Part shown: positions 1 through 21,201 of the stretch, one piece after another
Numbering within the stretch: position 1 is the first letter of the stretch
How the letters are laid out: the number at the start of each line of letters is the position of its first letter
Source of the DNA: a virus
Reading direction: 5' to 3' (one strand)
Virus record (IMG/VR): IMGVR_UViG_3300049433_000287
Location: 1-21,201 of that record
DNA length: 21,201 nt
Made by a program: the position numbers and the translations under genes
The notes under the pieces: generated by a model
Database searches by the model: none
Seen by the model: only the letters and a program-made list of their open reading frames with translations
Told to the model about the DNA's origin: nothing

Positions 1-41
1 TCACGTCTTGCGCCGCCACTCTGCCCCGGCGTGGGGGGTTC
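1..41. repeat. Half copy (right arm) of the composite palindromic element
   Basis: This stretch matches 842-882 with a single difference inside the arm (CCACTCTGCC against CCGCTCTGCC). Both copies point the same way, so the RAYT gene is bracketed by direct repeats of one arm. The RAYT stop codon lies at its first three bases. The rest of this copy presumably lies left of the window. Confidence 0.85.
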
Positions 42-609
42 TGCTTTTTTTCGATGGGCGCTTGCGTCCGAAACGTCCCTCGAAAGATTTATCGCGAACG
101 GACCACGTCCAGACGTCCGCGCCTTGATCGTAGAGAATGTATTCGAACGCGACGAATTGATGGCGACGATCCTTAATCGCCTTGAACGTCGCGCCGGAAG
201 ACCAAACGCTACCCGGCAAGTCCGCCTTCACCGCCCGCGACGAGATTCGCTTTGCCTTCCCAACAATCGCCCGGATCCGCACAATATTGTCCGAAAGCTC
301 CACCAGAAAATGCGCGTGAGTGCCCGTCACCGCGGCACACAACACGTCATGATCATCCTCAAGAAGCTGCGCCACCAGCGATCTTCCAATCACCGGCCGC
401 AGGTCTTTCTCGACCGATACTCGGTCGCGCGAGTGATCCTCCTGATATTGCAAAAGTCCCGCGTGCTCGCCTGCGGGCGGCCGATCGCGATAGTCCCCCG
501 ACGAGTGAACGCGATGCCGGCGATTTCGAAACCCGCGCGAATCTCCATGAAGCCAGGACGATAGCGTGTTGACAATCACATGACGCCATCGCTTTCCGGG
601 CCTGGCCAT
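1..609 (-). CDS. REP-associated tyrosine transposase (RAYT), IS200/IS605-like HUH family
   Basis: A 202-residue protein if started at MARPGKRW (607-609). RAYTs are single-domain HUH nucleases that nick and join single-stranded DNA at palindromic repeats. Visible features are the N-terminal WRHVIVNTLSSWLHGD strand, a THAHFLVEL segment giving the HUH-type pair His98/His100, and tyrosines 157 and 160 in FEYILYDQ as the candidate catalytic residue. The order (HUH first, Tyr about 60 residues later) and the length fit this family. The frame is open upstream to 936, but that part is repeat sequence, so the internal Met is preferred. The last residues (about 187-202, with TPHAGAEWRR) and the stop codon are encoded by a palindromic arm at 1-41, so the native C-terminus was replaced or extended by the repeat. 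A complete composite palindrome lies just upstream at 689-879. Identification is from motif recognition; an inactive relative cannot be excluded. Confidence 0.82.
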   Translation of the reverse strand: MARPGKRWRHVIVNTLSSWLHGDSRGFRNRRHRVHSSGDYRDRPPAGEHAGLLQYQEDHSRDRVSVEKDLRPVIGRSLVAQLLEDDHDVLCAAVTGTHAHFLVELSDNIVRIRAIVGKAKRISSRAVKADLPGSVWSSGATFKAIKDRRHQFVAFEYILYDQGADVWTWSVRDKSFEGRFGRKRPSKKSRTPHAGAEWRRKT

Positions 610-688
610 TCCCGAATCATCACGTCGCGCCCTGCTCTCAACAACCCCCAGGACCCGGAAGTATCGACACCGTCCGCATTCAGAACGA

Positions 689-879
689 CCCCCACGCCGG
701 GACAGAGCGGCGCGAGTGACATCGTCTTGCTGGTGAGTGCTAACGCCGCGCCGTCCCGGATCCTGGAAGCGCCGCAATTTCGTTGCGATTAATGAAAACG
801 CAGAATCCGGGGCGGCGCGGCGATTGCGCCTTTGATGTACTTCACGTCTTGCGCCGCCGCTCTGCCCCGGCGTGGGGGG
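689..879. repeat. Composite palindromic element, copy 1 (191 bp)
   Basis: Four arms in nested inverted order. The outer arms are 689-714 (starts CCCCCACGCCGGGACAGAGC) and 851-879 (ends CCCCGGCGTGGGGG). The inner arms are 745-766 (GCCGCGCCGTCCCGGATCCT) and 803-823 (GAATCCGGGGCGGCGCGGC). As single-stranded DNA it would fold into a long hairpin with two stems separated by an internal loop, the kind of structure RAYT proteins recognise. It has the same length as copy 2 (191 bp) but differs between the arms, so it looks like a different subfamily. It lies upstream of the RAYT gene, directly before a short GTGCCTCCGTGGTGAA repeat fragment (883-898). Confidence 0.88.
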
Positions 880-949
880 TTCGTGCCTCCGTGGTGAAAC
901 ATTTCTTCTGCGCTGATTTTCTTTCCTCAAAAACATCCGAATTTTTCTC

Positions 950-977
950 TTGCACTATTGTTAGGTATTTGTATGGT
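950..977 (+). promoter_or_regulatory. Possible promoter for the 1051 gene, with an anti-Shine-Dalgarno leader
   Basis: TTGCAC (950-955) and TATGGT (972-977) are 16 bases apart in an AT-rich island between repeats. This is a weak to moderate sigma-70-like match. The following leader has TCCTCCT (979-985), an exact complement of the AGGAGGA Shine-Dalgarno region at 1039-1045, and a GC-rich hairpin between them (991-1014). Confidence 0.35.
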
Positions 978-1050
978 ATCCTCCTGTCACGCCGACGGCT
1001 CGGGCACCGCCGGCGTTTGAACCATTCCAACTTCCAAAAGGAGGACTTCC

Positions 1051-1545
1051 ATGCTCCCCAATTCTTCGGATCCCGGCTCTCCGTCTGCGCACAAGAACCG
1101 CAAACGCCGGGTCGGGCTTTCCCTGTACCACGAGGATCGTCTCAAGCGCCAACTGCGCGAGTCGGCACCCAGTGAGCCCTGGGTGGAGGCCCAGTTCATC
1201 ACCGCGCTCGACCAGGATCAGGAGGGAGAGCCGATCGTTTATCGCTATCACGATCCGCGGGCGTTTCCGCCGGGCGGAGCGGAGACGGGCATGATCCGCT
1301 GCCCGGGGTGCGGCATCTTCATGCCGCCCAACGCGTTCGAGGACGGCCAATGCCTCGACCATGCCGACCACAGCGCCTGGGGCCGATCCCCCTCGGCAAT
1401 CGCGATCGAGGCGCTCCAGATGCGCAACCTTCGGCTCATCGATTCACCACTGCCTTCCGAGGACATTTCTGCGTTACGACAGGAGATTAGCAATTTTTAT
1501 GAAAAACGTGCGCAAATTTTTAAGTCCAGTTCCCATCAGGGTTAA
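1051..1545 (+). CDS. Hypothetical protein with a CPGC...CLDH cysteine/histidine cluster
   Basis: 164 residues. The start is set by a textbook AGGAGG (1039-1044) six bases upstream. The N-terminal part is basic and polar. Near the middle CPGCGIFMPPNAF is followed by GQCLDH, giving CxxC and CxxxH pairs suited to binding one zinc ion. The C-terminal third is helical (SEDISALRQEISNFYEKR). I do not recognise the family. The metal-binding core may serve nucleic-acid or protein contacts, but no function can be assigned. It is the first + strand gene after the RAYT element and has its own possible promoter. Codon use and GC content resemble the neighbours. Confidence 0.7.
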   Translation: MLPNSSDPGSPSAHKNRKRRVGLSLYHEDRLKRQLRESAPSEPWVEAQFITALDQDQEGEPIVYRYHDPRAFPPGGAETGMIRCPGCGIFMPPNAFEDGQCLDHADHSAWGRSPSAIAIEALQMRNLRLIDSPLPSEDISALRQEISNFYEKRAQIFKSSSHQG

Positions 1546-1604
1546 AAGGTCAGTTTGTCCACTTCTGCCTATATAGTGCGGGGATAACTAAATGCGAACT
1601 GCCT

Positions 1605-1826
1605 ATGCGAGACACCGATCGACAGAAATTAGCCCTCTATTTGCGTCACGAGCTGGGTTGGTCGCTGAGACGGGTCGGAAGGAAACTCGGCCTCAGCGTA
1701 TCGGGTGTCGGCAAGCTGTTGACCCGAGCGACGGAACAGGAAAGTCTGCGGATGGATCGTTCCGAGCAGGCGAGCCTCCGTCGCAGGATTTACCCGATCT
1801 CCCTGTCCATCGTCCATAACCATTAG
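1605..1826 (+). CDS. Small helix-turn-helix protein
   Basis: 73 residues. Residues about 8-42 (LALYLRHELGWSLRRVGRKL followed by GLSVSGVGKLLTRA) have the pattern of a helix-turn-helix resembling sigma region 4 or small phage regulators: a helix, a turn at Gly-Leu-Ser and a recognition helix. The C-terminal 25 residues are basic and look disordered. The upstream AT-rich stretch (CTATATAGTGCGGGGATAAC, 1569-1588) may hold a promoter, but no clear Shine-Dalgarno precedes ATG 1605, and an overlapping ATG at 1592 opens a different frame. A DNA-binding regulator is the most likely role; a small-terminase-like HTH is an alternative. Confidence 0.55.
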   Translation: MRDTDRQKLALYLRHELGWSLRRVGRKLGLSVSGVGKLLTRATEQESLRMDRSEQASLRRRIYPISLSIVHNH

Positions 1827-1841
1827 CCCGTGGGTACGCGG

Positions 1842-2043
1842 GAATGACGAATTCCGAAATTCGAATGACAAATGAATGATTGAATGACCAAATGTCCCCG
1901 GTTAGCGGCGATCCCGAAGGGGAGCGTTTTTCCGTGCAAGCAGAAGAAGCGCTCCCCTTCGCGTCGCGGCTAACCCGGTTCTGGTTTCGGTCATTTGAGC
2001 ATTCGTCATTGATTCGAATTTCGTCATTCGAGTTTCGTCATTA
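1842..2043. repeat. GACGAAT-type inverted repeat with a nested hairpin
   Basis: The left arm (1842-1893) and right arm (1987-2043) are built from alternating words such as GAATGACGAAATTCGAATGA and their complements. Between them is a nested hairpin: GGTTAGC (1900-1906) pairs with GCTAACC (1969-1975), and the perfect 12-bp arms CGAAGGGGAGCG (1915-1926) and CGCTCCCCTTCG (1950-1961) form the top. It fills the gap between the HTH gene and the lipoprotein gene and could act as a transcription barrier. Related repeats lie at 14289-14446, 15961-16137 and 17121-17325. Confidence 0.85.
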
Positions 2044-2082
2044 TTCACCAACTCCACTTTTTTAATCGAAAGCGAGAACAAC

Positions 2083-2658
2083 ATGCACTCCCATCTATTT
2101 GCAAAATCGGTTCGATGCACAGCGATCATAATCTGTGCCTCGATCTTCCTCGTCGGCTGCACCGCCCAGGACCTGCAGCAACTGCAGCAGGCGCGCACCC
2201 AGGCGGTTGCCACGCTGGATCAGGCACAGACCGCCCAGAGCCAGATCCAGAAGCAGCTCACCACGCTCCCCGCGAGCGATCCTCTGCGCCAGCAACTGGA
2301 GCCCAAGCTGGAGAAGCTCGACGCGCTGATCACGCAGATCCAGACATACGTGCCGGTGCTGGATGGCGCCATCCGATCGCTCGGCACCGGCCAGCCGGAT
2401 CCGGCGCTCCAACAGGCCGCCGCCGTCATCCCCTACGGCTCGCTCGCCCTGGCCCTCATCGGTGTCGTCTTCGGCGTGATCAAACACGTGCAAGCCGGCA
2501 ACCTGAGCGATCAGGAAGCGCAGACGCAAAAAGCCTTCGAGCAAATAGTCAGCGCCCTGGACGCGGCCCTCCCCACGCCAACGCCCGAGCAGAAAGCCGC
2601 GGTGGATGCAGTGCTGGACACGGATGTCAAGGCGAAAGTCGCCGCGGTGCGTTTGTAA
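2083..2658 (+). CDS. Predicted lipoprotein with coiled coil and a membrane segment
   Basis: 191 residues. A type II signal peptide is visible: Arg/Lys in residues 1-11, a hydrophobic run (CTAIIICASIFLVGC) and lipobox LVGC with the lipidated Cys at residue 26. A Gln/Ala-rich coiled coil follows (about 28-100), then a hydrophobic stretch (IPYGSLALALIGVVFGVI, about 116-133), then an Ala/Pro-rich tail. The mature protein would be lipid-anchored and possibly span the membrane again. The next gene, 26 bp downstream, encodes another coiled-coil membrane protein. The pair could be a phage holin/spanin-like set or superinfection-exclusion proteins, but no lysozyme is nearby. The ribosome binding site is weak (GCGAG). 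Confidence 0.75.
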   Translation: MHSHLFAKSVRCTAIIICASIFLVGCTAQDLQQLQQARTQAVATLDQAQTAQSQIQKQLTTLPASDPLRQQLEPKLEKLDALITQIQTYVPVLDGAIRSLGTGQPDPALQQAAAVIPYGSLALALIGVVFGVIKHVQAGNLSDQEAQTQKAFEQIVSALDAALPTPTPEQKAAVDAVLDTDVKAKVAAVRL

Positions 2659-2684
2659 AGACGACGCGGGGACGCGGAGACACA

Positions 2685-3023
2685 ATGTCCAACGACGACC
2701 TAACCACCGGCCAGCTCGACGCGATCCAGCGGCTGCTCAGCGAGCCCTTACGGCAAGCGGTGCGCGCCGAGATGCAGTCCGGCCACGAACGGCTCACCGC
2801 CGCGATCGAAAAGCTCGCCGAGCAGCTTGCCGGGCACATCGCCGACACGCTCCGCCGCGACCGGCTCCGCGAAACCCGCCTCGACGCGCTGGAGCGACGG
2901 GTAGCCGCCCTCGAGCGCTTTCGCGGGAAAGTATTGATCGTGTATGCCGCGCTAACGCTGCTTCTAAGCTTCGGCTGGTCGATCCTCCGCGAATGGGCGA
3001 CAGGTTTTGCGCGGAAAAGATAA
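2685..3023 (+). CDS. Small coiled-coil protein with C-terminal membrane anchor (holin-like candidate)
   Basis: 112 residues starting at MSNDDLTTGQ. Residues about 20-80 are an amphipathic charged helix typical of a coiled coil. One hydrophobic segment follows (VLIVYAALTLLLSFGWSIL, about 83-101), then a basic tail ending FARKR, so the N-terminus may be on either side of the membrane. Size and layout match small phage membrane proteins often annotated as holins or as DUF-type tail-anchored proteins. The family is not recognised. The region before the start has a GACGCGGGGACGCGGAGA word that also occurs in dispersed repeats of this window. Likely cotranscribed with the lipoprotein gene. Confidence 0.7.
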   Translation: MSNDDLTTGQLDAIQRLLSEPLRQAVRAEMQSGHERLTAAIEKLAEQLAGHIADTLRRDRLRETRLDALERRVAALERFRGKVLIVYAALTLLLSFGWSILREWATGFARKR

Positions 3024-3035
3024 ATCAAATTCGGA

Positions 3036-3156
3036 TTCACCACGGAGGCACGGAGGACACGGAGAAATGCAAAGAGAAGATTTGATTGGGATTTAATAAA
3101 TCACATTAATTTGTCTTTGTCTTCCTCCGTGTCCTCCGTGCCTCCGTGGTGAATCC
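3036..3156. repeat. CACGGAGG-type inverted repeat pair
   Basis: Arm TTCACCACGGAGGCACGGAG and following bases (3036-3064) is the near-perfect complement of 3125-3153 (CTCCGTGTCCTCCGTGCCTC onwards), with a loop of about 60 bases. Arms of the same family recur at 883-898, 3361-3486, 9800-9833, 12195-12230 and 15417-15566. Confidence 0.88.
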
Positions 3157-3170
3157 CTCTGGAGTTCTTT

Positions 3171-3344
3171 ATGACGCGCAAGCCGAACTCACAACGCGAT
3201 CCGCGTCGACGACAGCCATCCGATCGGAAGGAACTCCCCGATCGGTTTCAGCTGCTGATCGAGTGTCGGGACGAGGCACAGCAGCGTTGTTTATACGAAT
3301 GGCTTGTCGCCCGGAAATACGTCTGCCGGGTCATGGTGCTTTAA
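3171..3344 (+). CDS. Small conserved-looking protein (57 residues)
   Basis: The frame begins ATGACGCGCAAG and ends GTGCTTTAA. GGAG (3161-3164) sits six bases before the start. The protein has a basic N-terminus (MTRKPNSQRDPRRRQ) and a compact C-terminal part with DRFQLLIECRDEAQQRC and LYEWLVARKYVCRVMVL, a beta-alpha-beta-like pattern. From memory, short proteins ending in similar 'ECRDEA..R..YE.L...GY.CRV' patterns are common in planctomycete genomes near phage genes, but that cannot be checked here. It is flanked on both sides by CACGGAGG-type repeats and lies upstream of the ATPase gene. Function unknown; a small regulator or accessory of the packaging module is possible. Confidence 0.65.
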   Translation: MTRKPNSQRDPRRRQPSDRKELPDRFQLLIECRDEAQQRCLYEWLVARKYVCRVMVL

Positions 3345-3360
3345 AAGCAAATACAAAGAA

Positions 3361-3486
3361 GGATTAACCACAGAGACACAGAGGGCACAAAGAAAATCGG
3401 AGAAGAAATGCGGAATGCCTTTGTATTAAAACCAATTAATAACTCAGTGTTTCTTCTCCGTGTCCTCCGTGCCTCCGTGGTTAATC
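3361..3486. repeat. CACAGAGACACAGAGG / CTCCGTGCCTCCGTGG inverted repeat pair
   Basis: The left arm from 3364 (TTAACCACAGAGACACAGAG) and the right arm 3450-3486 (TTCTTCTCCGTGTCCTCCGT onwards to GGTTAATCC) are imperfect complements around a loop of about 60 bases. The element fills the gap between the 57-residue gene and the ATPase gene. The open frame upstream of ATG 3513 runs through it and is not thought to be translated. Confidence 0.8.
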
Positions 3487-3512
3487 CAAATTTGAATTTT
3501 CCGACAACACAC

Positions 3513-4799
3513 ATGCTCACAATCACAGTTCAATCTCCGATTCACGACAGTTTCCGCGTCCGGCAGGTCGCGGGGATGTTCGACCTTCACGTCGGCGAGT
3601 CCTGCTCGCAGACGTTCGAAGCCGAAGTTCCCGCGCTCTCGGAAGTATGGGACATCGGCGTCATCGTCGGCCCCTCCGGCAGCGGCAAGACCACCCTCGC
3701 CAAAGCCGCCTTCGGCAACGCCCTCTACCAGGGCGCCGACTGGCCCGCGGGCCGCGCCGTGATCGATTGCTTCGGCAATCTGCCCATCAAGCAGATCACC
3801 CGCGCCCTCACCAGCGTCGGCTTCAGTAGCCCGCCGTCCTGGTTAAAACCCTACGCAGTCCTGAGCAATGGCGAGAAATTCCGCTGCGAGCTGGCCGCGG
3901 CGCTGCTGCGAGCTGCTGGTGCGGCAGGGGTCAGCGGACAGGGCTCAGGGGACAGTGAAATGCAGGGAAAGGGCGAGGAACAAGTGACCAAGAACCAGGA
4001 ACCAGGAACAACTCTTCAACGCGTTTGTCCTTCACCGCCCCCTCTCGTTTTCGACGAGTATTCCAGCGTCGTCGACCGCACCGTCGCGAAAATCGCCTCA
4101 GCGGCCATCGCAAAAGCAATCCGCTCAGGAGTGACCAAAACCCGCTTCGTCGCGGTCACCTGTCACTACGATGTTGTCCGCTGGCTCCAGCCCGATTGGG
4201 TGCTGGACATGTCGGGGCCGTCGCTGTCGCGGGGGCGGATTCGACGCCCGCCGATCGCGCTGCGGATCGCTCGCGTCGAGCGGTCGCTCTGGCAGATGTT
4301 CAAGCGTCATCATTATTTAACCGGCTCACTCCACCGAGCCGCCCAATGTTTCGCGGGATTTATCGACGATCGACCGGCCGTCTTTACCGCGGTGCTCCCG
4401 TTCCCGCACCCGGTTCGCCCGGGTTGGCGCGAACACCGAACGGTCTGCCTGCCCGATTTCCAGGGCATCGGGATCGGAGCCGCGATGAGCGAGTTCATTG
4501 CGAGTGTATTTGTCGCAACTGGAAAGCCATATTTCAGCACGACGAGTCACCCGGCGCTGATTCGTCATCGAGCCCAGTCGCCCTTATGGAAAATGCACCG
4601 CAAGCCGGGAATGGTGGGCCGATGCGGAGTGACGAGTCGAAAGACCACCGGCATGTCCGACACCAATTCCCGGGGAAGAAACACCGCCGGATTCGAATAC
4701 ATCGGACCCGCCCGCACCGCGGACGCAAGGAAGCTCGGTGTGCAAATAACCCCCCACGCCGGGGCAGAGTGGCGCGGGATGCGTTGCTTCGCAGGATAG
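3513..4799 (+). CDS. ABC-type ATPase fused to an acetyltransferase-like domain (COG2401-like)
   Basis: 428 residues. The ABC half shows Walker A GPSGSGKTT (53-61), signature LSNGEKFRCELAAAL (117-131), Walker B PPPLVFDEYSSVVD (175-188, Asp181/Glu182) and an H-loop His218 in VTCHYDVV. The C-terminal half (about 245-405) has a GNAT-like acetyl-CoA loop LPDFQGIGIG (313-322). The architecture matches 'ABC-type ATPase fused to a predicted acetyltransferase'. Because it lacks membrane domains, it is not a transporter. Two oddities stand out. Residues about 139-169 (GVSGQGSGDSEMQGKGEEQV and following) are an in-frame repeat insertion between the signature and Walker B. The last residues (GVQITPHAGAEWRGMRCFAG) are encoded by the left arm of composite palindrome copy 2. 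The start at 3513 lies just after a repeat, with no clear Shine-Dalgarno. It sits before the terminase genes and may act in phage DNA or capsid modification; this is inference. Confidence 0.8.
   Translation: MLTITVQSPIHDSFRVRQVAGMFDLHVGESCSQTFEAEVPALSEVWDIGVIVGPSGSGKTTLAKAAFGNALYQGADWPAGRAVIDCFGNLPIKQITRALTSVGFSSPPSWLKPYAVLSNGEKFRCELAAALLRAAGAAGVSGQGSGDSEMQGKGEEQVTKNQEPGTTLQRVCPSPPPLVFDEYSSVVDRTVAKIASAAIAKAIRSGVTKTRFVAVTCHYDVVRWLQPDWVLDMSGPSLSRGRIRRPPIALRIARVERSLWQMFKRHHYLTGSLHRAAQCFAGFIDDRPAVFTAVLPFPHPVRPGWREHRTVCLPDFQGIGIGAAMSEFIASVFVATGKPYFSTTSHPALIRHRAQSPLWKMHRKPGMVGRCGVTSRKTTGMSDTNSRGRNTAGFEYIGPARTADARKLGVQITPHAGAEWRGMRCFAG
3927..4017. repeat. Repeat-derived insertion inside the ABC ATPase domain
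   Basis: The sequence changes character here: words such as GGGGTCAGCGGACAGGGCTC and AAGAACCAGGAACCAGGAAC are low-complexity purine-rich repeats, unlike the GC3-rich flanks. It adds about 30 codons without a stop and keeps the frame between the ABC signature and Walker B. It resembles the dispersed GTCAGTGG-type repeat at 13734-13803. Confidence 0.6.
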
Positions 4800-4940
4800 T
4801 TGATCGCCGCGCCGCCCCGGATTTGGGAGCGCCGGGTTTTGACGCACGACGCGCGCGGAACACGAAGAATCCGGGGCGGCGCGGCCGAGCGCATCTCCAC
4901 TGACCATACAACCGCGCGCCGCTCTGCCCCGGCGTGGGGG
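4750..4940. repeat. Composite palindromic element, copy 2 (191 bp)
   Basis: Outer arms 4750-4776 (CCCCCCACGCCGGGGCAGAG onwards) and 4914-4940 (CTCTGCCCCGGCGTGGGGG at its end); inner arms 4806-4827 (GCCGCGCCGCCCCGGATTTG) and 4867-4885 (GAATCCGGGGCGGCGCGGC). It has exactly the length and arm order of copy 1. Its right part (GAGCGCATCTCCACTGACCA to CTTGTTC) is nearly the same as copy 3, so copies 2 and 3 are one subfamily. The left arm encodes the end of the ATPase-acetyltransferase. Confidence 0.9.
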
Positions 4941-4956
4941 CTTGTTCCCGATTTGT

Positions 4957-4978
4957 AGTGTCCGCACTGCGGACCACT
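4957..4978. repeat. Short hairpin before the small terminase gene
   Basis: TCCGCA and TGCGGA (4961-4966 and 4968-4973) are perfect arms around a single C, flanked by AGTG and CCACT, in AGTGTCCGCACTGCGGACCA. It lies 8 bases before the first possible start codon of the next gene, so it could affect translation or be another dispersed repeat. Confidence 0.5.
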
Positions 4979-4985
4979 TTGGTGA

Positions 4986-5444
4986 ATGCAAATGATACTT
5001 CACAAAAATGTTCAATCAGAAATTCTCCTGGGCCTGCAGACGGGCATGTCCTTCCGTCGCGTAGCAGAGTTGATCGGGTATTCCGTCGAGGACATCGGTA
5101 AGGCAATGATGGAAGATCCGACCTTCGCTACGCAAGTACGACAAGCCCAGGCCAAACCGGAACACGAGCTGCTCCAAAGGATGCATAGTTCGGAGCAATG
5201 GCAGGCATGGAAGTTCCTGCTTCAGTCCCTGTATCCGACGCGCTACGTTTCCAGTCGAAAAAAGCCGGGCACGTTGCAGCCTCCGAAGCTCGAATCCGAA
5301 CAGACGCGCCTCGCCCGACTGAACAAGGCCGAGCTGGCGCAGCTTCTACCTATAACCGAGAAGATGGATGGAAAACGAGTCGACGCTCCAGACTCCCAGC
5401 AGCGACGGCACCAGGAAAGAGCTGCTGGCGAAGGATCTAGTTAA
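4986..5444 (+). CDS. Terminase small subunit-like protein
   Basis: 152 residues. The N-terminal half has a helix-turn-helix pattern (LQTGMSFRRVAELIGYSVED, about 17-36), then helices (ATQVRQAQAKPEHELLQRMH) and a QAWKFLLQSLYPTRY segment common in small terminase and related DNA-binding phage proteins. The C-terminal part is basic and polar. The gene ends 77 bases inside the large terminase gene, in the usual order TerS-TerL, which supports the call. No strong Shine-Dalgarno precedes ATG 4986; ATG 4992 is an alternative start. Small terminases bind the packaging site and stimulate the ATPase. Confidence 0.7.
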   Translation: MQMILHKNVQSEILLGLQTGMSFRRVAELIGYSVEDIGKAMMEDPTFATQVRQAQAKPEHELLQRMHSSEQWQAWKFLLQSLYPTRYVSSRKKPGTLQPPKLESEQTRLARLNKAELAQLLPITEKMDGKRVDAPDSQQRRHQERAAGEGSS

Positions 5445-7083
5445 ATTCATTGAACACGCCTGGCACGTGGTTGAACCCTCGACGCCTTATGTCCATGGCA
5501 CACACATTCAACTCGTCGCCGACCACCTGGAAGCCGTCACTAAGGGCCAGATCCGCAACCTGCTCATCAACCTCCCGCCCCGGCACATGAAGTCGCTGAC
5601 CGTCAGCGTCTTCTGGCCGGTGTGGGAATGGATCGCGGCGCCGCACCGCCGCTGGCTGTTTGCCAGCTACGCGGCTTCGCTTTCCATCCGCGATTCGCTC
5701 AAGTGCCGGCGGCTCATCGGGTCCCCCTGGTTCCAGGAACGGTGGGGCGATCGCTTAAAGTTGACCAGCGACCAGAACGAAAAGATGCGATTCGAGAACG
5801 ACAAAACAGGCTGCCGAATCGCGACCAGCGTCGGCGGGTCCGCTACCGGAGAGGGCGGCGATCGGGTCGTCGTTGATGACCCGCACAACGTGTCTGAGCG
5901 CGAGAGCGATTCGATTCGACGCGCGACTTTGACCTGGTGGGATGAAACCATGAGCACACGATTGAACGATCCGAAGACGGGCGCGAAGGTGATTGTCATG
6001 CAGCGAATTCACGAGAAGGATTTGTCGGGCCACGTGCTGGAGCAGGGGGGCTACGTGCACCTGTGTCTCCCGGCCGAGTTTGATCCGGCCCATCGCTGCA
6101 CGACGATTCTGAACTTGAAAGACGAGCGGATGGTCGAAGGAGAGCTGCTCTGGCCCGAGCGGATTTCGCGATCTGAAATCGCAGATTTCAAATTGCGCCT
6201 GGGTCCGGCGGGATATGCCGGCCAGTTCCAACAGCGCCCCGCCCCCGCGGGCGGGAACCGGTTCAAGCAGGAGTGGTTTCGATACTATCGCACGGCGCAG
6301 CCGGGCTCCCTCTCTTACCCCCTCTCCCTCCGGGAGAAGGGAGCGGATTGGGCGACTGCCCGCGACCGGGCTGGGGTGAGGGGGAATGACGAATGCGTCA
6401 CTCAGTCAGAATCGTCCGCAGCTTCCCCTCACCCCAACCCTCTCCCAAGGGGAGAGGGGGCCAGAGGCGAGCGCGCGGACTACATCCTCGCAAGGCCCGA
6501 TGGCTCCGAGCTCTGCATCCGCCCCGACCAATGCTCGCGCTTTGCCGTCATGGACCCGGCAGGCACGGAGCCCGATCAAAACACCCGGCCCTGTTACACC
6601 GTGATCCAGGTATGGGATGTCACGCCGGCGCATGACATGCTGCTGGTTCATCAATATCGCGCCCAGGTGCAGGCGCCCGATGCCGCCGCGGCGGCAGTCC
6701 GCATCGCCCGCGAATTCGACGTCGGCTTCCTCGCGATCGAAAAAGACGGCCACGGCCTCGGCATCGTCCAGACCGTCAAGCGGGCCGGCATCGCGGTAAA
6801 GCCGATCAAAGCCCGCGGCAGCAAGGAGGCCCGCAGCGAAACCGCCGAGATCCGCATGGCCGGCGGGATGATCTACTTCCCGCAAGGCGCCCCGTTCCTC
6901 TGGGACCTGGAGCAGGAACTGATCCATTTCCCGCGCGGTGAATATGCCGACCAGGTGGACGCGCTGGCCCACGCCGCGATGCAGGTGCAGAGGATGAGCG
7001 GAGGACTCGTCGCTCCGAAGGAACCGATCCATCCAGAGACGTTGCCGGTCGATGACGAGTTGAACGACGACGACTGGATATAG
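5368..7083 (+). CDS. terL: Phage terminase large subunit
   Basis: 571 residues. The ATPase domain has a Walker A-like LPPRHMKS (69-76), Walker B RVVVDDPHN (166-174) and a coupling motif IVMQRIHEKDLSGH (209-222). The RNase H-like nuclease has conserved acidic positions Asp396 (RFAVMDPAGT), Asp460 (AIEKDGHG) and Asp528/Asp531 (DQVDALAHA). This protein drives DNA into proheads and cuts the concatemer. Start ATG 5368 has a GAGAAG upstream and overlaps the small subunit gene. Between the domains, residues about 314-369 (from SLSYPLSLREKG to EGARGERAD) are encoded by a dispersed palindromic repeat (6308-6463) inserted without breaking the frame, so the protein is longer than usual relatives. The nuclease and ATPase motifs otherwise look intact. 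Confidence 0.93.
   Translation: MENESTLQTPSSDGTRKELLAKDLVKFIEHAWHVVEPSTPYVHGTHIQLVADHLEAVTKGQIRNLLINLPPRHMKSLTVSVFWPVWEWIAAPHRRWLFASYAASLSIRDSLKCRRLIGSPWFQERWGDRLKLTSDQNEKMRFENDKTGCRIATSVGGSATGEGGDRVVVDDPHNVSERESDSIRRATLTWWDETMSTRLNDPKTGAKVIVMQRIHEKDLSGHVLEQGGYVHLCLPAEFDPAHRCTTILNLKDERMVEGELLWPERISRSEIADFKLRLGPAGYAGQFQQRPAPAGGNRFKQEWFRYYRTAQPGSLSYPLSLREKGADWATARDRAGVRGNDECVTQSESSAASPHPNPLPRGEGARGERADYILARPDGSELCIRPDQCSRFAVMDPAGTEPDQNTRPCYTVIQVWDVTPAHDMLLVHQYRAQVQAPDAAAAAVRIAREFDVGFLAIEKDGHGLGIVQTVKRAGIAVKPIKARGSKEARSETAEIRMAGGMIYFPQGAPFLWDLEQELIHFPRGEYADQVDALAHAAMQVQRMSGGLVAPKEPIHPETLPVDDELNDDDWI
6308..6463. repeat. Dispersed CTCTCCC/GGGAGAGG inverted repeat inside terL
   Basis: The left part contains CTCTCCCTCCGGGAGAAGGG then GGATTGGGCGACTGCCCGCG, ending CTGGGGTGAGGGGGA (6382). 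The right part starts CCCTCACCCCAACCCTCTCC (6426) and ends GGGGAGAGGGGG. The same element is found at 19680-19838, with the left-part word inverted. No stop codon arises in the terL frame. Confidence 0.88.
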
Positions 7084-7113
7084 GTTAGTGATGAAGCGTT
7101 GAAATTGTGAAAA

Positions 7114-7294
7114 CCCCCCCACGCCGGGGGCAGAGCGGCGCCAAGTGGTGTTGATTTCGAAGTGATCGCGATCGCCGCGCCGCCCCGGATCTCCGTGCGC
7201 CCTAGTCCCTGCTTCAATGATTGCGTTCGCAGATCCGGCGGAGCGCATCTTCAACGACCACACAACCGCGCGCCGCTCTGCCCCGGCGTGGGGG
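7114..7294. repeat. Composite palindromic element, copy 3 (181 bp)
   Basis: Outer arms 7114-7140 (CCCCCCCACGCCGGGGGCAG onwards) and 7268-7294 (CTCTGCCCCGGCGTGGGGG at its end); inner left arm 7174-7195 (GCCGCGCCGCCCCGGATCTC). The inner right arm is shortened to AGATCCGGCGGAGCG (7231-7245), where copy 2 has GAATCCGGGGCGGCGCGGCC, a deletion that removes most of the inner stem. The segment to the right is nearly identical to copy 2. It occupies most of the terL-portal gap. Confidence 0.88.
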
Positions 7295-7357
7295 TTGTTC
7301 GCGAAGGGCGTTCGCGCGCCGCAATTGAGTTGTCGCAAATCGAAGAACGGAAGATCC

Positions 7358-8941
7358 ATGAACGAACCCGTTTACAACCTGACGCTGACTCCTACACACG
7401 CGGGCGACTTCGTCGCCGCGAAGGGCGCCGAAACCATCGGCGGATCGTCGTTCCTCTCTCCGCTGCCACTTGGCGCAGCTTACAGCGATGTATTCCGCAA
7501 GAGCCGCGCACCCTCTCCGGCGGAGTTGATTCAGCAACTCGTAGGCACCGCGTATGCGTGTGCCACGTTGAATGCGGATCTCGTGGCATCTACGCCAATC
7601 AAGTTGTATGTCGCCACCCGACCGGGCGACGCGAAGCCCAAGGGCTATCTGCGGCCGCACGCGGTCTCCCGCAAAACCCTCGCCCGGCTCGCGGCCGACA
7701 CGGCCCTCGCGGGATTCGTCGCCGGCGAAGTGACCATTCATGAAGTCACGCATCATCCGTTGCTGTCGCTGCTGAAATCGCCGCAAGCCGACCCGGAGAA
7801 TCCGGGCCTCAGCGGGTACGACTTCCGATGGATGACACAGCTCTATCTCGAATCCGTCGGCAGAGCCTACTGGCTCATCGAGCGCGATGGCCTGGGGGTG
7901 CCGGGCAAATTGTGGCTGCTCCGCTCGCACCTCGTGCGGGAAGTCGCGGACACCACGGGCCGGCGGATCATCAGCCACTACGAATACGGCGGATCGCGTG
8001 GCGCCCGCTATCAGCCATCAGAGATTATCCGCTTCCATTTCCCCGATCCGGAGAATCCGTACTTCGGCGGGTACGCGCCGCTGATGGCCGCGATCGAAAA
8101 GATTCGCATCGCCCGGAAAGAAGATGCGCACCTGAACGCGATGCTGGAAAACATGGGAAGGCCCGACGCGATCTGGTCGCCGCGGGGCGACAGCGAAGGG
8201 GGAGGAATTGGCTCTGCCGAGGCACAGCGGGTTCGCTCCGCCTTCCGGCAAACCTTCGGCATGGCCGGCCGCGGCGGCCTATTCGTCAGTGAATACCCCG
8301 GCACCCTGCAGCCGCTGCAATGGGCGCCGCAGGATGTGGTCGAGATCGAGCGCGCCAAGGCGATCAAGACAGACATCTGCAACGTCTTCGGCGTCCCCGA
8401 CGCCAAGCTCGAGCGCAATGCCGCGAACCTCGCTGGAGCGAAGACCGCGGATTACGCACACAAGGTGGATGCCGGGTTACCACGTTGTCGACGAATCGAA
8501 GAAACGCTGAACGCCCGGCTCGTCTCGATGTTCGACGCATCGGGTCGATTATTCGTCGCATACGACTCGCCGGTGCCCGAGGACGAGGTGTTCGCACTCG
8601 AGCAGACGCGCACCGCGAGCATGAGCGGCGCGATCACGCGAAACGAGATTCGCCAATCCGTCGGCCTCGACCCGATGCCCTGGGGCGAGCAGCCGTTGGT
8701 GCCGAATAATATGGTGGAGGTCGATCCTGAAACGGGAAGGCCGCAGCCGTCGATTCACGCGACGCCCGCTCCGATCGAGTTACCTCAGGACAAGGCATTG
8801 GCCGCACTCGCTGATGCCCAGGGCCGACTGGCGGATGCAATTGGCTTGCTCGCGACGCGATGCCAGGAAGAGAAGAAGGCGGAAGTTGCCACAGATGAAG
8901 GCAGGATAGACACAGATGAAAAGCCGGAAGCCGCGATATGA
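7358..8941 (+). CDS. Phage portal protein (HK97 family)
   Basis: 527 residues from ATG 7358, which has a GGAAG six bases upstream. The open frame extends back to 7217 but only through composite palindrome copy 3. Recognisable portal segments are LLSLLKSPQADPENPGLSGY, the adjacent tyrosine-rich TQLYLESVGRAYWLIERDG, the PSEIIRFHFPDPENPYFGG block (like HxxxxxxDxxxG/YGxSP of the family), LENMGRPDAIW and the C-terminal NEIRQSVGLDPMPWGEQPLV. Portals form the dodecameric DNA entry ring at one capsid vertex. The last roughly 18 residues (EVATDEGRIDTDEKPEAAI) are encoded by a dispersed CACAGATGA repeat (8888-8923), an unusual tail. The next gene starts inside this end. Confidence 0.9.
   Translation: MNEPVYNLTLTPTHAGDFVAAKGAETIGGSSFLSPLPLGAAYSDVFRKSRAPSPAELIQQLVGTAYACATLNADLVASTPIKLYVATRPGDAKPKGYLRPHAVSRKTLARLAADTALAGFVAGEVTIHEVTHHPLLSLLKSPQADPENPGLSGYDFRWMTQLYLESVGRAYWLIERDGLGVPGKLWLLRSHLVREVADTTGRRIISHYEYGGSRGARYQPSEIIRFHFPDPENPYFGGYAPLMAAIEKIRIARKEDAHLNAMLENMGRPDAIWSPRGDSEGGGIGSAEAQRVRSAFRQTFGMAGRGGLFVSEYPGTLQPLQWAPQDVVEIERAKAIKTDICNVFGVPDAKLERNAANLAGAKTADYAHKVDAGLPRCRRIEETLNARLVSMFDASGRLFVAYDSPVPEDEVFALEQTRTASMSGAITRNEIRQSVGLDPMPWGEQPLVPNNMVEVDPETGRPQPSIHATPAPIELPQDKALAALADAQGRLADAIGLLATRCQEEKKAEVATDEGRIDTDEKPEAAI
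8888..8923. repeat. CACAGATGA-type repeat forming the portal C-terminus
   Basis: GCCACAGATGAAGGCAGGAT and following bases match the arms at 10459-10494 (direct) and 10525-10560 (inverted) with few differences. It supplies the last portal codons and the start codon region of the following gene. Confidence 0.8.
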
Positions 8942-10356: not shown

Positions 10357-10458
10357 CCCGATCCCCTTCCGGCCCAATGCCCGGCGGCGTTTGATTGCAC
10401 CTGCGGTCAGCATGATTCCAGTAGTTTAGCATCGAGCGGTAGAAAACAAATTCAGATT

Positions 10459-10560
10459 CGCCACAGATGAAAACAGGATGGACACAGATAAAACCAAAGC
10501 GACCGATGCGGTCTGCTGTCTTGTCTTCATCTGTGTCCATCCTGTCTTCATCTGTGGCGA
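10459..10560. repeat. CACAGATGA-type inverted repeat pair
   Basis: Arms 10459-10494 (CGCCACAGATGAAAACAGGA onwards) and 10525-10560 (CTTCATCTGTGTCCATCCTG onwards to GTGGCGA) are nearly perfect complements around a 30-base loop. It separates the divergently read nucleotidyltransferase gene from the protease gene and could act on both. The portal C-terminus carries the same family. Confidence 0.88.
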
Positions 10561-10588
10561 ACATTCTTTCTTCTTTTCCTGAACCCAA

Positions 10589-11356
10589 ATGATCAAACGC
10601 TTCGACAATATCATCGAGCATTCCCAAACGGGCTTCACTATTCCCGAGGCCCTGGCCAGGAAGATCGATCAACTCTCCCGCGGGCTTCCCAAGGAATTGG
10701 GCTACCGGCGCATCGCTCGCAAGAGCGACGAATTCACCCTCGACACGGGAGAGCGCACCGACGTGAGCCTGATCACCACCGATGCTCTCGATCGCGACGG
10801 AGAAGTCGTCCTACCAGCCGGCGGCGACTGGTCCACTTACAACCGCGTGGTGACGTTTGCCCATCGGTATGACCAGCTTCCCGTCGGCAGCAACTGGTGG
10901 ATTCGGCCGCGGGGGAATGGCTTGATTGCCAAGACGCATTACCCGCAGAAGCCGACAGATTGGGGCGACGCGCCGTGGTTGCCTTCTGCAGTATTGCACT
11001 TGATGCAGCAGCCGGTGCCGACGTGCACGGGAAAGAGCATCGGCTTTTTGCCGCTGAATGTGCGGGCCGCGACGAGCGATGAAATCGCCCGCCGGCCCGA
11101 GCTGCGCGGCGTGCCGGTCATCGACCGGTGGATTGGCGTGGAATACGCGGTTGTGCCGGTGCCATGCAATCCCGATGCGGAAATGCAGGCGGTCGCCAAG
11201 GGGATGGAAATGGGCCTGATCGACGAAAAGCTCATGCGGCTCATCAGCGAATCGCACACTGCAACGCCAAAGTCCTTTTCACCCGCATTGATTCGTCGCC
11301 GCGTCCTGCAACAGATTCGTGAACAGTATGAACGGCTCACCGGTCGGGTAGGCTGA
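10589..11356 (+). CDS. HK97-type prohead protease
   Basis: 255 residues. The serine-protease core is visible: SLITTDALDRDGEVVLPAGG (strand and loop), VVTFAHRYDQLPVGSNWWIR (catalytic His92), TGKSIGFLPLNV (catalytic Ser150) and EYAVVPVPCNPDA (strand with Pro-Val-Pro). This fits the U9/U35-type phage maturation proteases that process the capsid N-terminal scaffold. The length is typical. In the usual gene order it would follow the portal directly, but here 8916-10560 has been inserted between them. No strong Shine-Dalgarno precedes ATG 10589. A diverged fragment of a second copy lies at 12062-12122. Confidence 0.87.
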   Translation: MIKRFDNIIEHSQTGFTIPEALARKIDQLSRGLPKELGYRRIARKSDEFTLDTGERTDVSLITTDALDRDGEVVLPAGGDWSTYNRVVTFAHRYDQLPVGSNWWIRPRGNGLIAKTHYPQKPTDWGDAPWLPSAVLHLMQQPVPTCTGKSIGFLPLNVRAATSDEIARRPELRGVPVIDRWIGVEYAVVPVPCNPDAEMQAVAKGMEMGLIDEKLMRLISESHTATPKSFSPALIRRRVLQQIREQYERLTGRVG

Positions 11357-11500: not shown

Positions 11501-11532
11501 TCTTTATCAATGGTGGGGACAAGGGAAGAACT

Positions 11533-12057
11533 ATGTGGATTGAAACGCTCGAATCTCGACGCCTGATGTCCGTAACGCTTCTGCCCGATGCGCCCGCGCG
11601 TCCGCTTGAGAATACGGCAGTCCGCGCAGCGCTTCACGCGAAGAAGCTGCCCGACCGGCTCTCCCGCAACATCATCGGCTCCTACAACGGCTTCTATGCC
11701 CTCGGCAAGGTCTCGTTTGCCGGCAGTGAGACGATGACGATTGACAGCCAGACGAGTACAAAATTCACAGGCACGCTTTCTTTCGACGACGGGGCTGCCG
11801 CCCCGTTCACCGCAACCCTCTACCCCCGCGCCCAGTACGCCGCCCTGGGCTACGGCTACTTGTTCATCGCCCATTTCAAGTCCGGGTTCATCAAGAAGAA
11901 GGGTTGGACGACCCTGATCGTGCTCAGAGGCGAATTCCAGCTTGGTGCCAACGGCTTCATCGTCCAGATGAACGGCAGGTTCAACGGGAAACCAGTACCC
12001 AAACCCCACGGCGAACTCAATCTCACCCCCGACGACCCCAGCACGTTCCTGCGGTAG
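11533..12057 (+). CDS. Secreted-type protein with planctomycete LEPR-like N-terminal motif
   Basis: 174 residues. The N-terminus WIETLESRRLMSV matches the 'F/E-x-LE-x-R-x-L(M/L)S' motif typical of many exported or surface planctomycete proteins, with ESRRLMS particularly common in Phycisphaerae. The rest is beta-rich (YNGFYALGKVSFAGSETMTI, TLSFDDGAAAPFTATLYPR and RGEFQLGANGFIVQMNGRF), suggesting a small beta-sandwich or barrel. It has no catalytic motif that I recognise. It has its own promoter-like sequence and Shine-Dalgarno and sits between protease and capsid genes, where no phage gene is expected, so it is probably host-derived cargo. Its function is unknown. Confidence 0.72.
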   Translation: MWIETLESRRLMSVTLLPDAPARPLENTAVRAALHAKKLPDRLSRNIIGSYNGFYALGKVSFAGSETMTIDSQTSTKFTGTLSFDDGAAAPFTATLYPRAQYAALGYGYLFIAHFKSGFIKKKGWTTLIVLRGEFQLGANGFIVQMNGRFNGKPVPKPHGELNLTPDDPSTFLR

Positions 12058-12061
12058 CCGG

Positions 12062-12122
12062 GTGGTGACGTTTGCCCATCGCGACGACCAGCTTCGCGTC
12101 GGAATCAATCGGTGGATTCGGC
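12062..12122 (+). pseudogene. Fragment of a second prohead protease gene
   Basis: These 61 bases match 10847-10907 of the intact protease gene at 53 positions. In frame they encode VVTFAHRDDQLRVGINRWIR, against VVTFAHRYDQLPVGSNWWIR (residues 87-106) in the intact protein, including the catalytic His. The differences are spread out, so this is an older copy or comes from a related phage. The fragment begins four bases after the stop of the cargo gene and runs into dispersed repeats. Confidence 0.75.
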
Positions 12123-14266: not shown

Positions 14267-14288
14267 TTCTTAACATCGCAAGTTGTGG

Positions 14289-14446
14289 AAATTCGAATAA
14301 CGAAATTCGAATGACGAATCAATGTTCAAATGAACAATGATCGAATGACGAAACGAGTCTCTCGTTTGGTCATTGGGTCATTCCAGCATTCATCATTGAT
14401 TCGTCATTCGTCATTCGAGTTTCGTCATTCGAGTTTCGTCATTCCG
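14289..14446. repeat. GACGAAT-type inverted repeat
   Basis: The left arm from 14289 (AATTCGAATAACGAAATTCG) is complementary to the right arm ending at 14446 (ATTCGTCATTCGAGTTTCGT). The element fills the gap between the decoration candidate and the adaptor gene. It is one of four such elements in the window. Confidence 0.85.
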
Positions 14447-15416: not shown

Positions 15417-15566
15417 AGGATTCACCACGGAGGCACGGAGGTCACGGAGGGAAAAAAGAGACGCGGAGACGCAGGGACGCGGAGAAAGATAAAAACGCGC
15501 CAATGCGCGTCTGGCCTCTTTTTCCGCGTCCCCCCATCCCCGCGTCTCCTCTTGGCTCCGTGGTTG
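15417..15566. repeat. CACGGAGG-type repeat with GACGCGGAGACGCGG words
   Basis: GGATTCACCACGGAGGCACG and following bases (15418-15448) face CCCGCGTCTCCTCTTGGCTC (about 15538-15558), with GACGCGGAGACGCAGGGACG (15461-15480) opposite CCGCGTCCCCCCATCCCCGC (15523-15542). The arms are imperfect. No gene was found in this 190-bp gap. Confidence 0.75.
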
Positions 15567-15950: not shown

Positions 15951-15960
15951 GAGGGCGGGG

Positions 15961-16137
15961 AATGACGAAAGTCGAATGGCGAAATTCGAATTAATGACGA
16001 ATGCTCAAATGACGGAATGACGAAACAAGAAACCGCGCAACATGTTCCCTGAGCGTTCGTAGAGTTTTCGTTTCGTCATTCGGTATTCGGTCATTTGAAC
16101 ATTGATTCGTCATTCGTCATTCGAATTTCGTCATTCG
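15961..16137. repeat. GACGAAT-type inverted repeat
   Basis: The left arm from 15961 (AATGACGAAAGTCGAATGGC) and the right arm ending 16137 (ATTCGTCATTCGAATTTCGT) face each other around a loop with GAAACCGCGCAACATGTTCC. It precedes the 16194 gene. Confidence 0.82.
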
Positions 16138-16193
16138 ACGGCGTCCCTGCACCAAGAACACGCGGCTTCCCTTCATTTGTCTGGAGAAAAATC

Positions 16194-17111: not shown

Positions 17112-17120
17112 AGCTGCGCG

Positions 17121-17325
17121 GAATGACAAAATTCGAATGACGAATGACGAATCAATGACGAATGCTCGAATGAGCTAATGACGAAACAAGAACCCACGGA
17201 ACAAGTTCCGTGGGCGTTACAGGGAGTATTCGTTTCGTCATTTCAACATTTGGTCATTCGAACATTGATTCGTCATTTGTCATTCGAATTTCGTCATTCC
17301 GCGAACGCGGTCATTTCGTCATTCC
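17121..17325. repeat. GACGAAT-type inverted repeat with a perfect hairpin
   Basis: The left arm from 17121 (GAATGACAAAATTCGAATGA) and the right arm to about 17325 are complementary. Between them CCCACGGAAC (17193-17202) and GTTCCGTGGG (17205-17214) are perfect 10-base arms two bases apart. It precedes the 17342 gene. Confidence 0.85.
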
Positions 17326-20425: not shown

Positions 20426-20670
20426 AGAGCTGTACAGGCGGGGAAGACGAGCAATTGTAAGGATTGAGTGGAAATAGCAGTCCGAATTATCGGACTTCCG
20501 CTGCCGAACGACGGGGATTAATGTGGACAGAGAGTTACACGGTTGGTAGTCTTTGCCACATCAAAGGCTACCAACCTATTGCGCCGATATCTAAACGGCT
20601 GAACGTACGCGCATCGGGAAGCGTATAAATGCCGGACACTATCCGGTGAATGCCAGAAAGGAGGCATCCA
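20426..20670. other. Noncoding region with three hairpins
   Basis: AGTCCGA/TCGGACT (20479-20485, 20490-20496) is a 7-bp stem with a 4-base loop. GGTTGGTAGTCTTTG/CAAAGGCTACCAACC (20541-20555, 20562-20576) is a 15-bp stem with one G-T pair and a 6-base loop. CCGGA/TCCGG (20632-20636, 20642-20646) sits just before the next ribosome binding site. The middle one has the look of a terminator or small-RNA hairpin, though no U-run follows. No ORF of note was found. Confidence 0.55.
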
Positions 20671-21201
20671 ATGACCATCTACACCATCGAAGATGTTCAG
20701 AAAATTACCGCGGAAATTCAGAGCAAGTTGGATGCTTGCGATAATGGCGAGGGCATGGAATGCGCAAGCCTGGATGCGTCACTCCAGCACTACGCGCGTT
20801 CTTGCTGCAAATTCTCCTTGCGCGTGCGCGAATGGGCCCAAGGCGTGTTTTCTGGGAAGTTCCCCTCCAATCCGCAGATCGAGCAGGCGTGGCGCGAGGA
20901 AGGCGACCGACTTCTTCGTCGCTGCTCGGATATGCTGCTGCGAGGCGAGCAGGCAGACGTTCCGTGCTATGATTTGCCGGGCCAGAGCATGCTTCGGGCA
21001 TCGCTGTGGGAACTAAGTCTGATCCTGTCTAACTGGGTTGCCCCGAAGCTATCGGTCGCACCATCCGCTCGCGTCAGCTTCACGCCGGAAGATGTAGAGG
21101 CTGCCTCGAATCGCATTGCCGAGCTTCCGCCACTTCCAGAAGGTTGGCAACCAGAAGATCAGAGGCAGCGGACGCTCTATCGGAAGGCAAAAACTTCGTA
21201 G
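20671..21201 (+). CDS. Hypothetical protein, unrecognised
   Basis: 176 residues; GGAGG (20660-20664) is six bases before ATG 20671, a strong start like that of the 1051 gene. Helical text dominates (TIEDVQKITAEIQSKLDACD, ASLQHYARSCCKFSLRVREW, EEGDRLLRRCSDMLLRGEQA). The end is FTPEDVEAASNRIAELPPLP with EGWQPEDQRQRTLYRKAKTS. There is no signal peptide or membrane segment. It is separated from the phage genes by a noncoding hairpin region, so it is probably a host or independently expressed gene at the edge of the module. No function is suggested. Confidence 0.65.
   Translation: MTIYTIEDVQKITAEIQSKLDACDNGEGMECASLDASLQHYARSCCKFSLRVREWAQGVFSGKFPSNPQIEQAWREEGDRLLRRCSDMLLRGEQADVPCYDLPGQSMLRASLWELSLILSNWVAPKLSVAPSARVSFTPEDVEAASNRIAELPPLPEGWQPEDQRQRTLYRKAKTS

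Follow-up and report, generated by a model that had tools for sequence, protein, structure and literature searches.

A REPtron-like locus in a virus record: a class 3-like tyrosine HUH gene and its candidate palindromic dimers

Class 3 TnpA-Y1 transposases are found in Planctomycetes and Acidobacteria, where they are accompanied by atypical flanking hairpin structures in up to ~600 copies (Quentin 2018, PMC6006769). Their motif is YV[VI][AENY]EQ, with NHVH and W[TA], and the class 3 profile is 155 aa long (PMC6006769). In evolutionary terms, they were proposed as intermediates linking IS200 transposases with RAYTs, and experiments on their origin and behavior were called for (PMC6006769). An earlier study described GTAG/CGTC REPs in Rhodopirellula baltica and other deep phyla, as well as numerous tyrosine transposase genes flanked by repeats (Di Nocera 2013, PMC3733652). 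It also described TIRtrons, whose repeats can be doubly palindromic, and the location of REPs at the 3' ends of genes (PMC3733652). A sequence-only reading of the locus presented here had regarded it as a new, non-proteobacterial type. Since deep-phylum cases of such systems were already reported in 2013 and 2018 (PMC3733652; PMC6006769), the locus is a further example and not a new kind. The REPtron-like association suggested by the same reading, in which a tyrosine HUH gene lies amid a dispersed palindrome family, is supported by the anatomy described below.

The window, meaning the whole stretch of DNA that was analyzed, is a virus record of 21,201 bases (G000) with terminase, portal, and capsid genes. 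Bases 1-3 of the record read TCA, the TGA stop of the minus-strand ORF 1-609, and base 21201 is the final base of the TAG stop of ORF 20650-21201. From both ends lying on stop codons we infer that the record is a provirus trimmed at gene borders from a longer contig. The position of the ends also bears on the palindrome piece at 1-41, which had been called a half copy. It is instead the right end (1-38) of a copy cut off by the end of the record, so the truncation belongs to the record and not to the element. Elsewhere in the window, a 65-nt stretch at 10843-10907, within ORF 10589-11356, recurs at 12058-12122 with 86% identity and may be a partial duplication. The features on which the argument rests are as follows.

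1-609, minus strand: diverged HUH/Tyr ORF (TnpA-Y1, class 3-like) of 202 aa, termed P0001; weak profile matches, motifs
1-38, plus strand: visible right end of a fourth copy (copy 0); 31.9 bits with model R1, 5' end cut by the record end
689-878: copy A, head-to-head dimer of 190 nt; left unit 689-768 (minus), right unit 798-878 (plus)
4751-4940: copy B, dimer of 190 nt; left unit 4751-4828 (minus), right unit 4862-4940 (plus)
7116-7294: copy C, dimer of ~179 nt; left unit 7116-7195 (minus), right unit 7226-7294 (plus)

With a probability of roughly 0.6, two REP-like units joined head to head make up the element, and the adjoining class 3 TnpA-Y1 ORF encodes the enzyme that probably mobilizes it. 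The three copies noted earlier (A, B, and C) are all present and the HUH-Y frame does lie between copy A and the piece at 1-38; copy C has a deletion of ~12 nt in one inner arm, in its right unit. The equal length reported for two diverged copies holds for A and B, at 190 nt rather than 191.

At least four copies of the nested palindrome are found within 21 kb. The 20-nt tip GCTCTGCCCCGGCGTGGGGG occurs six times in the window at three or fewer mismatches, compared with no occurrence in 100 shuffles. When the 38 outermost nt of the right units are aligned, copy A matches the 1-38 copy at 36 of 37 bases (0.97) and copy B matches copy C at 37 of 38 (0.97), while identity across these pairs is 0.84-0.86, that is, 14-16% of positions differ. 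Thus the copies that touch the transposase gene form one subtype, and those in the phage gene cluster form another. Copies 0 and A, on either side of the gene, also have the same orientation. The tetranucleotide GAAC, noticed post hoc as a possible conserved end tag, is present at five of seven element ends and is given no weight here.

Copy A is located between divergent genes, 79 nt from the transposase start codon. The left end of copy B overlaps the 3' end of ORF 3408-4799, and copy C begins 32 nt past the stop of the terminase ORF; both are thus at, or directly after, gene 3' ends, a placement also reported for REPs (PMC3733652), and these head-to-head dimers sit inside a phage gene cluster. 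ORF 3408-4799, upstream of the terminase gene, encodes an ABC-type ATPase joined to an acetyltransferase-like part and strongly matches phrog_11143 (function unknown; E = 3e-93). Three of the copies (0, B, and C) either overlap a gene 3' end or come shortly after one, and the hairpins are strong, as would suit palindromes that serve chiefly as transcription terminators or mRNA 3'-end stabilizers and are linked to the HUH gene by chance. This explanation was judged very unlikely. Terminator-like sites are not in excess in positions 1-8000 (7 found vs. 8.5 expected), copy A lies between divergent genes, and a dispersed family with subtypes requires a spreading mechanism whatever its later use. 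A terminator or stabilizer role is nevertheless compatible with dimers mobilized by an HUH enzyme, the two not being exclusive.

Each copy consists of two ~80-nt REP-like units in inverted arrangement, with their feet toward the dimer center. Written along the unit, the consensus reads CAGAAT-CCGGGGCGGCGCGG-(~30 nt)-CGCGCCGCTCTGCCCCGG-CGTGGGGG, in which CAGAAT is the foot near the dimer center, the ~30 nt form a variable loop, and CGTGGGGG is the outer tail. The GC stem of the unit has 13 bp (CCGGGGC+GGCGCG / CGCGCC-GCTCT-GCCCCGG), which a 3'-side bulge of 5 nt divides into 7 bp and 6 bp. An exact CnGA foot, as reported for class 3, occurs in three of the six window units (CAGA in the right units of A and C, CGGA in the left unit of C) and is absent from L076, a second virus record described below. 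Across the six units, the stem pairing is present in 92% of cells, and this value drops to 41-55% with the partner shifted by 1-3 columns. Copy A shows a compensatory change from G-C to A-T in its left unit (columns 16/70 of alignment A3), while its right unit retains G/C. This change preserves pairing within the unit and weakens pairing between the halves, which favors the view that what is conserved is the unit hairpin. No second compensatory event was seen, and 79 of 500 shuffles score equally well. The best interpretation of each palindrome is a head-to-head pair of ~80-nt REP-like units, analogous to a REPIN or BIME.

The same structures can also be viewed as a miniature inverted-repeat element (MITE) of a classical DDE-type IS. 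Here the outer arms would be the terminal inverted repeats, moved by a transposase from another host locus, which would leave the HUH gene as a bystander. The outer arms are 24-26 bp long and 96% complementary, and the whole element, at 180-190 bp, has the usual size of a MITE. Moreover, no fold is more stable than the full-length hairpin: as single-stranded DNA, full copies A, B, and C gave z-scores of -7.9, -7.7, and -7.2 against dinucleotide shuffles, while unit hairpins alone gave -0.3 to -2.9 and are not reliably more stable than their shuffles. The presence of several other inverted-repeat families in the window points in the same direction. On the other hand, the inner arms are conserved too and are related to the outer arms as a bulged unit hairpin, a target-site duplication is not evident by eye in the flanks, and two copies of the same subtype abut the HUH-Y gene. 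A DDE-type origin was thus considered unlikely, and the dimer of REP-like units is retained as the preferred reading.

At least three such families were found besides the one studied here, with units such as GAATGACGAAATTCGAATGACG, CACCACGGAGGCACGGAGG, and CCACAGATGAA. The second inverted-repeat family (GAATGACGAAATTCGAATGACGAAT...) has four dimer-like copies of ~150-200 nt, at 1842-2042, 14285-14444, 15951-16145, and 17117-17303. A third (GGATTCACCACGGAGGCACGGAGGACACGGAG) is found at 3033-3156, 3349-3501, and 15418-15457, and gave short marginal matches to Gemmatirosa plasmids (E = 9e-3). The fourth, of the CCACAGATGAAGACAGGATGGACACAGATGAA type, is present at 10457-10561 and 8888-8920.

The candidate enzyme P0001 contains an HAH motif at residues 98-100 (codons 318-310) and YILYDQ at residues 157-162. 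The predicted catalytic Tyr157 is encoded at 141-139 and Gln162 at 126-124, giving an HUH-Y distance of 59 aa. The protein, first suggested to be a RAYT, carries HUH/Tyr motifs, and its profile matches fall short of their cut-offs: 15.7 bits (E = 0.011) against NF047646, the NCBI RAYT family, where the cut-off is 80 bits, and E = 0.067 against PF01797 (Pfam Y1_Tnp). With a RAYT profile built from Pseudomonadota RAYTs, P0001 was the best of the 134 window ORFs and ranked 4 of 5001 against its own shuffles. The expression H-x-H, 50-70 residues, Y-[IVL]-x-x-[DE]-Q, which was written after P0001 had been seen, matched one of 2035 ORFs of at least 100 codons, namely P0001, and none of 20,000 P0001 shuffles. 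By its spacing and catalytic residues P0001 appears to fit class 3 TnpA-Y1, with disagreement at some consensus letters. A single-sequence AlphaFold model of the protein was set aside, its mean pLDDT being 33.

The frame had been described as complete, and it is indeed open over 202 codons; its last 12 codons and stop, however, lie inside the palindrome copy at 1-38, so that the native 3' end has been replaced or extended. The end of ORF 3408-4799 likewise lies in copy B, and both frames translate the element tip as PHAGAEWR. The altered ending of P0001 would also suit an HUH relic, decayed or non-functional, in which case a different copy of the gene would have spread its elements. The third-position GC of ORF 1-609 (0.655, compared with 0.72-0.80 in eight other window ORFs) and the departures from published class 3 motifs (THAH vs. 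NHVH, WS vs. W[TA]) could be explained in the same way. Set against these features are the frame itself, open for 202 codons, and the catalytic His, His, Tyr, and Gln, all of which are present, and a relic was accordingly rated rather unlikely.

Relatives of the element and of the protein were then sought in wider collections. One homologous whole dimer was found at 11503-11669 of virus record L076, near the record end, with a bulge one base shorter in both units. The independent evidence of homology is the BLAST match to the window (E = 1e-11). With model R1 the two L076 units scored 82.3 and 75.0 bits, values that are high in part by construction, as both units contributed to the alignment behind R1. 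Outside the window, the next match reached 18.9 bits (E = 0.012). The unit covariance model gave one weak match in 398 Pseudomonadota genomes, taken as chance, and no convincing copy. Among 84,980 GTDB species genomes, the exact 22-nt tip was matched once, and no partner arm accompanied it. As partner arms were seen only in L076, the tip-pattern matches in genome and viral contigs (L013, L014, L015, and L077-L084), which lacked them on inspection, were also taken as chance. A further candidate, L075, has just one 23-nt arm. For the protein, neither the viral, plasmid, and phage collections (searched by tblastn for plasmids and phages) nor the 398 Pseudomonadota genomes yielded a homologue of P0001. 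A viral scan using a probe alignment of P0001 and two invented class 3-like rows, which are not database sequences, gave no match and supports no claim, and three matches from a WLHGD motif scan were attributed to chance.

The link between enzyme and element is suggested by adjacency, a common subtype, and the motif fit. Element copies abut the transposase gene on both sides, one by the 3' overlap at 1-38 and the other (A) upstream of its start. Proximity alone is weak evidence, since at least three other inverted-repeat families share these 21 kb, none of them with its own transposase there. Also counting against the pairing is L076, in which the dimer is present and no relative of P0001 was found in its 11.7 kb. 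In the proposed mechanism, the units would fold in single-stranded DNA, such as that of the lagging-strand template. The HUH protein would then cut at the unit foot through Tyr157, with Mg2+ held by His98, His100, and Gln162. The dimers may be excised or copied in this way and then joined to new sites, mostly at gene 3' ends. A bolder proposal, judged quite improbable, is that a class 3 HUH enzyme moves ~190-nt dimers as its transposition unit in or beside a provirus, so that phages would carry enzyme and dimers alike from host to host. This bolder proposal, if true, would make class 3 a functioning intermediate that links IS200-type transposons with domesticated RAYTs. Both the enzyme and its candidate substrate, with unit stem, bulge, foot, and dimer, are defined at this locus and are testable in vitro.

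Among known systems, the locus resembles class 3 TnpA-Y1 (PMC6006769). It has an HUH and a Y-4-Q motif (YILYDQ), a similar length, and flanking repeated secondary structures. Its consensus foot CAGAAT is near the reported CnGA, which is exact in half of the window units (three of six) and inexact in the other half. It differs from class 3 in its THAH and WS motifs and in having strong rather than weak stems, and apparently also in its ~190-nt head-to-head dimers. Like the TIRtrons, it has a tyrosine transposase gene between long inverted repeats that, as in some of those systems, are doubly palindromic and belong to repeat families (PMC3733652). By eye, the tip GGGGCAGA lacks the GGGGWSAS motif common to some, though not all, published TIRs, since its W position is occupied by C. 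P0001 is also too short for the extra C-terminal domain found in most TIRYTs (subclass 2.1; PMC3733652). As in the proteobacterial RAYT/REP, REPIN, and BIME systems (TnpA-REP class 2), an HUH-Y protein is encoded beside inverted pairs of hairpin units, with copies at gene 3' ends. Unlike these, no unit has a GT[AG]G foot, YILYDQ takes the place of Y-x-x-x-NP, and the units are ~80 nt rather than 21-65 nt long. The simplest reading is a REPtron-like class 3 locus, consisting of an HUH-Y enzyme and the dimers it probably moves.
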